A stretch of DNA of 64,000 bases from a halophilic archaeon SHRA6 (GTDB lineage Archaea; Halobacteriota; Halobacteria; Halobacteriales; Haloferacaceae). The stretch lies in the NCBI GenBank assembly GCA_005239175.1, contig SOPS01000001.1, positions 62,001 to 126,000 of the forward strand. Reading direction: 5' to 3'. The position numbers and the translations under genes were made by a program. Shown in pieces: positions 18,812-63,763 of the stretch (position 1 is the first letter of the stretch; each line of letters starts with the position of its first letter). The notes under the pieces were generated by a model. That model worked only from the letters and a program-made list of their open reading frames with translations. It did not search any database and was not told the origin of the DNA.

Positions 18812-18905
18812 TGAAATCCACCGTGTTCCGCTGCTGCATAGACGCTCTGTATTCAGCAATCGATACCTATCAGTCTCAGAGGATTTCAACAGAGCCATCG
18901 GCGAC
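18812..18905 (-). repeat. Dispersed repeat family, copy 2
   Basis: On the minus strand GGCTCTGTTGAAATCCTC is followed, after a spacer with GATAGGT, by TGCTGAATACAGAGCG. This is the best-preserved copy of a family with three other members in the window. It abuts the duplicated tRNA-Ser 3' end at 18911, so it marks the outer edge of that module. Confidence 0.6.
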
Positions 18906-18910
18906 AAAAG

Positions 18911-19033
18911 TACCGAGGGTGAGATTTGAACCGCAGTCGCTCCGCTCCTTGGTTCAAATCTCACGGCTCACGCACAGCCGCTCACGGGTCCGAGATCCAC
19001 AAAAGGATCTCGGAGTGGTGTTCGCGGCAGAAG
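18911..19033 (-). repeat. tRNA-Ser 3'-end module: two perfect hairpins and a duplicated tRNA end
   Basis: Immediately beyond the 3' end of tRNA-Ser comes TGCCGCGAACACC, then a perfect 10-bp hairpin (18989-19014, 6-base loop), then a second perfect hairpin of 14 bp (18919-18964, 18-base loop). The outer arm of the second hairpin is itself part of a second copy of the tRNA 3' end, ending CTCACCCTCGGT at 18913. The copy matches the last 18 bases of the tRNA gene. The same layout follows tRNA-Gln at 63421. Confidence 0.8.
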
Positions 19034-19118
19034 CGCCGAGGGTGAGATTTGAACTCACGTGTCCGAATGGACAGTAGATTTCGAATCTACCGCCTTGGCC
19101 AGGCTAGGCTACCTCGGC
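19034..19118 (-). tRNA. tRNA-Ser (anticodon CGA)
   Basis: The minus strand folds into a class II tRNA: acceptor stem GCCGAGG/CCTCGGC with discriminator G, D-stem GCC/GGC, anticodon stem GTAGA/TCTAC around TTCGAAA (anticodon CGA), a long variable arm GTCC-ATTC-GGAC, and T-stem GTGAG/CTCAC around TTCAAAT. The long variable arm and the G at position 73 are both expected for serine. No CCA is encoded. No intron is seen. Confidence 0.97.
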
Positions 19119-31520: not shown

Positions 31521-32951
31521 GTGGCTGACGCACGCAAGCGCGTCGACATGACGACCGGCGCGATCACACCACGGCTGTTCACGCTTGCGTATCCGCTCGT
31601 CCTCGGCAACCTGCTGCAGACGTTTTACAACCTCGCGGATATGTTCTGGGTCGGCCGCGTGAACGACACCGCGGTCGCGGCGGTCTCGCTCATGTTTCCG
31701 CTCTCGTGGATGTTCGTCTCAACCGCGATGGGGATCACCGCGGCGACGATCGCACTCGTCTCTCAGCACGTCGGCGCGGGCAACGATCGGCGGGCAGACC
31801 ACGTCGTGGCCCAGACGACGCTGCTCGCGCTCGCGGTCTCTATTGTACTCGCGACTGTCGGCTTCGCGGTCCGTCACGACCTGTTGACGCTCATGGGCGC
31901 GCGAGACCAGGTGTTCGTCGAGGCACTTGCGTATATTGAGGTTGTGTTCCTCACCATTCCGCTGACGTTCCTGTTTTTCGCGTTCCGATCGTCGCTGCAA
32001 GGAGCGGGCGATACGAAAACAGCAATGTGGCTCATGATCGTCTCCGCTGGCTTCAACGTCGTGTTCGATCCGTTTCTCATCCTCGGGTGGGGGCCGTTCC
32101 CCGAACTCGGGACCCAGGGTGCGGCGGTCGCGACGTTAGTGGCACGCTTTATCGCCGCTGCCGGCGGGATATACGTCCTCTTGCGCGGCGGTTTCGGCGT
32201 CCAGCTCCGCGTCCGTGACCTTCGTCCGAATCCCGAAATTCTGAAAAAGCTCGTCGGGATCGGCTACCCGGCCACGCTCGACGGGTGGGCGCGATCGTTC
32301 GCGGCGGTCGCGATGGCCTCGCTCGTCGCGCGGTTCAGCGTCGCCGCGATCGCTGCCTACGGCATTGGCGTCCGGATGATGTCCGTCTCGTGGTCAGTGG
32401 CGGGCGCAGTCGGACAGGCGACGGCGACCGGCGTGGGACAAAACCTCGGCGCAGAAACGCCCGATCGGGCCGTCGAGGTGACGTGGAAGGCGACCGCCGG
32501 AACAATGGGTGTGTTGTTCGCCGCGGCAGCGATTGTCGTCGCGTTTCCCGCCGCCGCAATGGGGATTTTCATCAGCGAACAGGCTGTGATCGACGAGGGC
32601 ATTCGGTTCCTGCGGATCATCGCCCCGTCGTGGGCCTTCTTTGGCGGGGTGATGGTGATCCAGGGGGCGTTCCGCGGCGCTGGCGTGACAAAGGTCGCAA
32701 TGGTCCTGTCGTTCCTCTCGCGGTGGATTTTCCGGATCCCGCTGGCAGTTGTCCTCGCGTTCGCGTGGGTTGTGACGATTCCCGGGACGACGACCTCGAT
32801 CGCCGCTCTTGACATGGGCGTTCGCGGACTGTGGATCGCCTACGCGACCGCTGCGGTGCTCTCGTTCGCCGTCGCTGTGGGTTGGTTTACCCTCGGAACG
32901 TGGAAGGGCGGGGTCGTGGAAAAGCCGAGCGATCGAACGCCGGGAGATTGA
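31521..32951 (+). CDS. MATE family multidrug efflux transporter
   Basis: A 476-residue polytopic protein with twelve predicted helices and the MATE start (RLFTLAYPLVLGNLLQTFYNLADMFWVGRVNDTAVAAVSL). The second half repeats the layout (GIGVRMMSVSWSVAGAVGQATATGVGQNLG). MATE pumps use a sodium or proton gradient to export cationic drugs and metabolites. The start is a GTG at 31521, with an ATG 27 bases later as an alternative. It is in the same direction as, and 6 bases from, the NAD(P)-binding gene. Confidence 0.93.
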   Translation: MADARKRVDMTTGAITPRLFTLAYPLVLGNLLQTFYNLADMFWVGRVNDTAVAAVSLMFPLSWMFVSTAMGITAATIALVSQHVGAGNDRRADHVVAQTTLLALAVSIVLATVGFAVRHDLLTLMGARDQVFVEALAYIEVVFLTIPLTFLFFAFRSSLQGAGDTKTAMWLMIVSAGFNVVFDPFLILGWGPFPELGTQGAAVATLVARFIAAAGGIYVLLRGGFGVQLRVRDLRPNPEILKKLVGIGYPATLDGWARSFAAVAMASLVARFSVAAIAAYGIGVRMMSVSWSVAGAVGQATATGVGQNLGAETPDRAVEVTWKATAGTMGVLFAAAAIVVAFPAAAMGIFISEQAVIDEGIRFLRIIAPSWAFFGGVMVIQGAFRGAGVTKVAMVLSFLSRWIFRIPLAVVLAFAWVVTIPGTTTSIAALDMGVRGLWIAYATAAVLSFAVAVGWFTLGTWKGGVVEKPSDRTPGD

Positions 32952-63347: not shown

Positions 63348-63420
63348 AGTCCCGTGGTGTAGCGGCCAATCATAATGGCCTTTGGAGCCATTGACGGCGG
63401 TTCGAATCCGCCCGGGACTA
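63348..63420 (+). tRNA. tRNA-Gln (anticodon TTG)
   Basis: The sequence folds as a standard tRNA: acceptor AGTCCCG/CGGGACT with discriminator A, anticodon stem ATGGC/GCCAT around CTTTGGA (anticodon TTG), T-stem GGCGG/CCGCC around TTCGAAT. No CCA is encoded. Its 3' end is repeated several times downstream. Confidence 0.95.
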
Positions 63421-63725
63421 TTTTGCCGCGAGCAACACCGCGAGCGGAAAATACGTCCAGCGGATTCGGGCCCAGAGGACGAGAGAATTCGAGTCCTCGC
63501 GGTTCGAATCCGCCCGGGACTATCCTGCTGCGAACATTGTCGTGAGCAGCAGGTATCCCTCGGGGATTCGAATCAGAGAGCGGAGCACCGCGGAGCGATC
63601 GTGGTTCGAATCCGCCCGGGTTGTATCTCATGCGTTCGCTATCTGTTCGATAACTCAAACCGATGAAACGAACAGATCCCAATTACGGAGTAGAGCACCA
63701 CGGAGCGATCGTGGTTCGAATCCCA
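63421..63725 (+). repeat. Array of three tRNA-Gln 3'-end modules with hairpins
   Basis: GCGGTTCGAATCCGCCCGGG, the T-arm and 3' end of tRNA-Gln, recurs at 63499 and in shorter form (GGTTCGAATCC) at 63603 and 63713, giving steps of 102, 102 and 110 bases. Each module carries a hairpin after the tRNA end: 63420-63452 (9 bp with one bulge), 63524-63553 (8 bp perfect, 14-base loop), 63641-63677 (9 bp perfect, 19-base loop). A 6-bp hairpin lies just before the next copy (63475-63498; 63587-63605; 63697-63715). The 63587 and 63697 hairpins differ by G-T versus A-T pairing at the same position. No protein gene is supported in this 343-bp stretch. Confidence 0.85.
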
Positions 63726-63763
63726 CCAAGATTATACGACAAAATAAGAGTGCGACTTTGTCA

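Follow-up and report, generated by a model that had tools for sequence, protein, structure and literature searches.

In archaea and bacteria alike, mobile DNA classically inserts at the 3′ ends of tRNA genes, and both short non-coding mobile repeats and tRNA-targeted recombination are already known. The 7-bp overlaps and the tRNA targets of tyrosine recombinases have been reviewed (PMC8371274). In Haloquadratum, MITEs, PATEs and SMRs have been described as short, gene-less, structured mobile repeats with fixed terminal repeats or subterminal palindromes, often located within other mobile elements; the mode of SMR mobilisation is not known (PMC3119063). Haloarchaea also carry islands with an HF2-type integrase, inserted directly behind tRNA genes (PMC3119063), and SNJ2-type (pleolipovirus) elements that target tRNA 3′ ends. 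Finally, integron cassette arrays (attI/attC, IntI) are tandem arrays that grow beside a fixed anchor.

The hairpin units reported here resemble each of these systems in part. As in integrons, a tandem array grows beside a fixed anchor, and inverted-repeat exchange sites surround a variable hairpin with one strand favoured, a likeness of architecture only. Unlike integron cassettes, however, the units are gene-less (at ~80 to 140 bp they have no room for a gene), are anchored on a tRNA gene, carry that anchor's own end, and have no integron integrase at their locus; when three recombinases of the own genome were tested for integron-integrase scores, the best was far below the cut-off. Moreover, none of the own genome's integrase matches lay beside an array except the SNJ2-type one that goes with the displaced tRNA-Met unit. 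SNJ2-type elements share with the units their tRNA 3′ targets and their host organisms, and an SNJ2-type island is present at tRNA-Met of the own genome, but their 15-bp core does not include the T loop, their attP lacks the inverted arm and inner hairpin (H) described below, and they are inserted between the tRNA and an older unit. The units have no SNJ2-family integrase gene, and, unlike the 14-15 bp SNJ2-type core, type-1 copies span ~20 bp from the T loop; only type-2 units (Arg, Ala) share the core start. HF2-type islands likewise lie directly behind tRNA genes, but they carry kilobases of genes, lack unit-type arms, and mostly have a long displaced tRNA fragment reaching the anticodon region. 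Like MITEs, PATEs and SMRs, the units are short, gene-less, structured repeats of haloarchaea, but their arms are the neighbouring tRNA's T loop and their sites are tRNA 3′ flanks; MITEs are marked by terminal inverted repeats in common with an autonomous transposon and by a short target duplication, whereas no terminal repeats common to the units were seen, and the units end in a tRNA tail and in a left hairpin, X. No description of these units was found in the open-access literature, which was the scope of the search. As far as found there, the new elements are arms that track the T loop of the neighbouring tRNA and an exchange of cassettes between tRNA arrays. The gain, loss and swapping of hairpin units between species point to a tRNA-anchored mobile repeat that has not been described before.

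The unit behind tRNA-Ser(CGA) and the tRNA-Gln array

The window, that is, the whole stretch of DNA analysed, comprises 64,000 nucleotides (G000:C1:62001-126000) of the own haloarchaeal genome, G000 (3.36 Mb). The tRNA flanks of G000 were examined as separate loci, many of the relatives compared belong to the same family or order, and a congeneric species, G001, was the reference for unit gain and loss. Across the whole window, only two tRNAs matched above the Rfam gathering score, and no unit matched any RNA family. The first, tRNA-Ser(CGA) (19033-19118, minus strand; ARAGORN and Rfam RF00005, 58.7 bits), anchors the array under study; the second, tRNA-Gln(TTG) (63348-63420, plus strand; ARAGORN and Rfam), anchors the window's other array. 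An additional ARAGORN call, tRNA-Ala(CGC) at window positions 32270-32353, was without Rfam support and is probably false.

A single unit, encoded like its tRNA on the minus strand, lies 3′ of tRNA-Ser(CGA) and is composed of X, an inverted T-loop arm, H, and a second tRNA end. Reading from the tRNA, the order is TTCT-GCCGC-GAACACCAC, a 10-bp hairpin, CCCGTGA-GCGGC, a spacer, GTGAGATTTGAACC, AAGGAGCGGAGCGACTGC, GGTTCAAATCTCACCCTCGG and TACTTTTG. X (18977-19032), recognised by sequence and fold and by X hairpins at other tRNAs, has an outer stem of GCCGC (19028-19024) and GCGGC (18981-18977), preceded by TTCT; nested in its loop is the perfect 10-bp hairpin TCCGAGATCC/GGATCTCGGA (19014-18989), also found by sequence and fold. 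The inverted arm GTGAGATTTGAACC (18951-18964; sequence and fold) is the complement of the T loop plus the 3′ T-stem strand, and the H region AAGGAGCGGAGCGACTGC (18933-18950) belongs to the family with the box GAGCGAYYGYGG preceding the copy. The second tRNA-Ser end, GGTTCAAATCTCACCCTCGG (18913-18932), is identical to the tRNA from the T loop onward and lacks the final tRNA bases (CTCGGTA versus CTCGGCG in the tRNA). It is followed by TACTTTTG (18905-18912), the T run past the second end and the site where a further unit would start. The inverted copy and the second tRNA end are the arms of a perfect 14-bp hairpin, GTGAGATTTGAACC/GGTTCAAATCTCAC, in which 18964-18951 pairs with 18932-18919. When the Ser stretch was folded as single-stranded DNA, a z of -5.96 was obtained, and 0 of 200 shuffles was equally stable. 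Both sequence and fold bore out the module that the initial annotation had described behind this tRNA, with its perfect 10-bp and 14-bp hairpins and second tRNA end.

That annotation had also named two short motifs as common to the Ser and Gln arrays, and this held strictly for one of them. The pre-copy motif GGAGCGAYYGYGGTTC matched exactly three times in the window, once at Ser (18928-18943, minus strand) and twice at Gln (63592 and 63702); with two mismatches allowed, there were five matches in the window against 0.88 expected, a frequency above background. The strict pattern TGCCGCGA..AACAC was matched only at Gln, the Ser version being TGCCGCGAACACC. Because this motif forms the 5′ side of the X stem, which varies in sequence between units, the exact sharing of TGCCGCGA is partly coincidence; despite this, the structure common to the two arrays is real.

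The Gln array occupies 63421-63734 on the plus strand. Its first unit (63421-63522) has an X of TTTTGCCGC..GCGGAAAA, the inverted arm GCGGATTCG, an H, and a second tRNA end with 0 mismatches. In the second unit (63523-63624), X is TGCTGC..GCAGCA, the arm is GGGATTCGAA, H contains GGAGCGATCGTGG, and the tRNA end has 5 mismatches in 24; the third, decayed unit (63625-63734) retains the H box GGAGCGATCGTGG and a tRNA end with 6 mismatches in 24. With a perfect tRNA-proximal copy and distal copies at 5-6 mismatches in 24, the array looks as if new units enter beside the tRNA.

Anatomy and distribution of the units

From 143 tRNA loci, 107 distinct units were collected, and an inverted arm was recognisable in 98, with a median length of 118 bp including the tail. 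A unit, ~80-140 bp long, consists of X, an inverted T loop (GATTYGAA), H, and a tRNA copy that runs from the T loop to the 3′ end. X is mostly a hairpin that starts from the T run behind the tRNA, such as GCGGC-GAGCAAACTCGCGA-GCCGC, and its stem sequence varies from unit to unit. H falls into a few scaffold families that recur throughout the class, among them TCAGGGAG...CGACCGTGG, CCCT-stem...stem-CGG and TCACGG...GCATCGGG; within a family, the stem varies on both sides (GCCAG/CTGGC, ATCAG/CTGAT, GGAAG/CTTCC). When stem mismatches were counted as a test of RNA versus double-stranded DNA selection, 28 were G-T and 18 were A-C. Type-2 units were seen at tRNA-Arg of the own genome (loci L023 and L016) and in the tRNA-Ala and tRNA-Arg flanks of G001 (L249, L255 and L270). 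These comprise an inverted copy of the acceptor portion, a hairpin, and a copy whose start, at the 3′ T-stem strand, coincides with that of the SNJ2-type core.

The tRNA-derived parts fit the tRNA beside which they lie. Past the T loop, the second end matched its own tRNA at 9.31 of 10 nt, compared with 4.30 when tRNAs were shuffled; for the stem part of the inverted arm, 3.11 of 6 positions matched, compared with 2.18 for shuffled tRNAs (maximum 2.54). Arm and tRNA agreed at the T loop's variable purine in 94 of the 98 units, a count somewhat favoured by the fact that arms were located by similarity; in the unbiased pattern list of the relative G042, agreement was 22/24. Moreover, the rare T loops TTCAACTC, TTCAATTC and TTCGATTC were mirrored by the inverted arm in most cases. 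The orientation of H was strongly biased: GAGCGNAGCGAG occurred 16 times in sense and once in antisense, and GAGC plus CGAG occurred 568 versus 123 times. The sense strand gave the more stable DNA fold in 87 of 98 units. As a unit-specific marker, GAGCGNAGCGAG was rejected; about 10 of its 21 genome matches lay at tRNA arrays and the others elsewhere, and the reversed control was not independent of it.

In a strict test, 17 of the 43 tRNA genes of G000 had a second end of the T-loop type within 600 bp downstream, and none of the 43 had one within 600 bp upstream. When tails were shuffled among the G000 tRNAs, the downstream count averaged 5.5 with a maximum of 11, an average that arises because T loops and some tails resemble each other. 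When the flanks are read less strictly, a few more come in (Phe, Thr-CGT, Val-GAC and the displaced Met unit). About half of the G000 tRNA genes are followed by such units. The genome has two tRNA-Asp genes 11 bp apart, with a unit behind the second (L025; G000:C1:882715-882871). Of the nine matches to the core pattern GATTYGAAN{14,44}TTCRAATC in the 3.36 Mb of G000, one lies within the tRNA-Ser gene and eight lie in the 3′ flanks of tRNA genes, against 0 for the reversed control; chance is excluded for the pattern at the genome level. Across the class, the pattern was present in 188 of 194 Halobacteria genomes, with up to 24 matches per genome and 0 control matches in all. Outside Halobacteria, 29 of 242 genomes had 1-2 matches and 10 had control matches, which is about chance level. 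When viral contigs were scanned, those among the matches listed were only chance ones from other environments. Loci sampled in other families displayed the identical order of parts at Arg, Leu, Lys, Met, Ser, Gly, Gln, Glu, Val and Pro tRNAs. The proposal of one kind of element at unrelated tRNAs was thereby supported, the skeleton recurring at most tRNA isotypes and across the class. Nearly a whole archaeal class keeps dynamic arrays of tiny cassettes at tRNA 3′ ends.

Gain, loss and exchange of units

Between G000 and G001, sites that are cleanly empty in one species and filled in the other were found precisely at the tRNA 3′ end. At tRNA-Gly(CCC), a 91-bp unit lies between the tRNA and the flank TACCTGCGACG in G000, whereas in G001 that flank follows the tRNA directly. 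At tRNA-Ala(CGC), a 77-bp unit is present in G001 and absent in G000, and at tRNA-Arg(CCT) G000 has an additional unit compared with G001. The tRNA-Ser(CGA) array itself has one unit in G000 and three tandem units in G001, and across the genera of the family its unit is present or absent. A possibility raised at the outset was that relatives might lack the second tRNA end without any other change; the relatives were instead found to differ by clean gain or loss of whole units.

Units are also replaced, in whole or in part. At tRNA-Phe, G000 and G001 have unrelated units in one slot, both ahead of the flank TTAGACTCAG. At tRNA-Lys(TTT), tRNA-Gln and tRNA-Ser(TGA), X is kept between the two species and H is different; the tRNA-Gln of G001 has a hybrid unit made up of the X of Gln unit 1 and the H of Gln unit 2. 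In G042, two kinds of unit alternate (A-B-A-B) within the five-unit tRNA-Ser(TGA) array, and exactly 58 bp, GGATTTGAA-(40 nt H)-TTCAAATCC, are identical between tRNA-Ser(TGA) and tRNA-Pro. On both sides this identity ends at the next base, where the tRNA-specific T-stem starts. In total, 31 pairs of H at least 86% identical were found at different tRNA genes. Despite unlike T loops, the H at tRNA-Gln(CTG) of G134 is identical to that at tRNA-Ser(TGA) of G042 except at 1 of 43 positions, and both arms match the local T loop. Because the 58-bp identity is bounded by the 9-bp T-loop arms, H would be the part that moves and the tRNA-specific parts those that stay. To judge from these sequences, the tRNA-derived ends appear to be resident in an array, and the hairpin H appears to be the travelling part. 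The initial annotation had proposed an element that adapts its tRNA-derived end to its target. The end does match its own tRNA and the arm does follow the T loop, but the clearest transfer between tRNAs moved only H with the universal 9-bp arms, and the tail and X were local.

Candidate recombination mechanism and alternative explanations

We infer that the units are non-autonomous cassettes subject to site-specific recombination at the T loop, perhaps by a tyrosine recombinase provided in trans; we put the probability of this reading at roughly 45%. Strand exchange would occur within a T loop (TTCRAAT), either the tRNA's or a unit's, and this 7-bp sequence would suit the overlap region of a tyrosine recombinase. 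Such an exchange would insert a unit behind the tRNA and restore the tRNA, and H would be swapped as a cassette between its two inverted T-loop sites, leaving the tRNA-specific flanks unchanged. The enzyme would act in trans and would most likely be a tyrosine recombinase, one candidate being the Xer-like recombinase encoded at G000:C3:374766-375806. Homologues of this protein were found in all 194 Halobacteria genomes, in nearly all as a single copy, and none of 238 genomes of the phylum outside Halobacteria had a match at E<=1e-50. It scored 116 bits against an XerA cut-off of 220 and was not named XerA by NCBIfam. It is a candidate for the unit-moving enzyme by co-occurrence at class level, which is not a link; six genomes have the recombinase and no pattern match, and it may simply be a dimer-resolution enzyme.

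The orientation of H together with the sense-strand bias suggests that a folded single strand takes part in the exchange. Loops of the d(GCGNAGC) type fold into DNA mini-hairpins of unusual stability, and this would be in keeping with a folded single strand. Since type-2 units start at the T-stem like the SNJ2 core, more than one enzyme may be involved. Two points count against the cassette reading: exchange at inverted sites would be expected to yield inverted H, yet H is nearly always in one orientation, and homologous recombination with DNA of related species could explain the replacement of whole units at the same tRNA. Moreover, we know of no integrase that uses this inverted-arm site, in contrast to the SNJ2 attachment site, which has been studied experimentally. 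If the units are indeed mobile, they would represent a new type of non-autonomous mobile repeat, with comparative data at hand, in the form of empty and filled sites and of transfers with sharp limits, and with a candidate enzyme present in single copy. A more far-reaching version appears doubtful to us, namely a gene-less system in which hairpin cassettes between inverted T-loop sites behind many tRNA genes are swapped between arrays, the enzyme being a tyrosine recombinase resident throughout the class that recognises T-loop sites as folded single strands, as an archaeal, tRNA-anchored counterpart of integron arrays.

The units might also have spread without a dedicated recombinase, if palindromic hairpins on DNA provoke template switching, microhomology exchange and gene conversion between the near-universal T loops, and if tandems arise by unequal crossing over between tRNA tails. 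The exchange boundaries are the 9-bp T-loop palindromes, the alternating repeats at tRNA-Ser(TGA) of G042 resemble a product of unequal crossing over, hybrid units occur in Lys, Gln and Ser arrays, and haloarchaea recombine readily. We nevertheless consider this explanation unlikely, given that unrelated new units appear precisely at the tRNA 3′ end with the flank otherwise intact (Gly-CCC, Ala-CGC), that a few H families recur class-wide, and that 9 bp is short for homologous recombination.

Alternatively, the units could be RNA trailers with a function at tRNA genes (in termination, in 3′ processing, or as a decoy of the tRNA end) that are kept by selection and reshuffled by homologous recombination. 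Such a role would agree with the sense-strand orientation and stability, with the folding of H as RNA (z -4.7), with the start and stop of every unit at the T run behind a tRNA end, and with inverted arms that track T-loop variants; if true, a large share of tRNA genes would have an unrecognised structured trailer. This seems unlikely to us, however, in that more than half of the tRNA genes are without a strict unit (17/43 have one), the same tRNA occurs with or without a unit in sister genera, the Phe units are completely different between two congeneric species, and kilobase islands part units from their tRNA without loss of the tRNA.

We regard it as very improbable that larger integrative elements, for example SNJ2-like proviruses, lost their bodies by deletion and left the second tRNA ends behind as scars (attR with arms). 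In its favour, integration usually targets tRNA 3′ ends, such elements are marked by a displaced tRNA end (PMC8371274, PMC3119063), and type-2 units start where the SNJ2-type core starts. Against it, the island right ends examined lack the inverted-arm/H structure, in eight cases the unit was already in place when the island entered, and random deletions would not be expected to give the uniform spacing from X to H. Whether the units are mobile cassettes or RNA trailers, a second tRNA end in a haloarchaeal genome is no proof of a former provirus, which matters for automated island mapping.

The evidence on islands is as follows. In eight cases, an integrated island separates a tRNA from an intact unit, which therefore predates the island; these islands do not have the arms of the units. 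At the elongator tRNA-Met of G000, an SNJ2-like island of ~8 kb (L084, 7700-16100, G000:C1), with an integrase 70% identical to that of the SNJ2 virus, separates the tRNA from an intact unit; G001 provides the empty site, with the unit directly behind tRNA-Met. In G179, tRNA-Val and a unit are separated by a 10.4-kb island. No inverted-arm/H structure was seen at the right ends of these two islands or in SNJ2's own attachment region. The interposed islands, the empty site in G001 and the unstructured SNJ2 attachment region led us to reject the units as ends of SNJ2-type elements. A second integrase family was found in 86 of 194 Halobacteria genomes and is termed HF2 type by its layout (behind a tRNA, with a displaced tRNA end), not by comparison with HF2. 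The right ends of its islands, mapped at Leu, Glu, Gly and Met tRNAs, are displaced tRNA fragments with no inverted arm or H in front, and the units were rejected as ends of HF2-type islands; in six cases (L336, L337, L338, L348, L356 and L358), one or two units directly follow the island.

The only candidate for a full-size element with unit arms lies at tRNA-Leu(TAG) of G050 (L300; G050:C14:298000-303500), where a unit is located between the tRNA and the left end of an integrase-bearing 2.3-kb island whose right side runs directly into an inverted arm, H and tail. In a simpler reading, the arrangement may come from the arrival of a unit after the island together with a deletion, or from the entry of an island into the tail of a unit. 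No Pfam domain was found in the integrase-like ORF, whose identity is based on relatives of ~360-440 aa beside tRNAs and on sequence features. Behind tRNA-Leu(TAG) of the own genome (C3:121573-121656), a fragment of an HF2-type integrase (G000:C3:121216-121524) is likely an island remnant.
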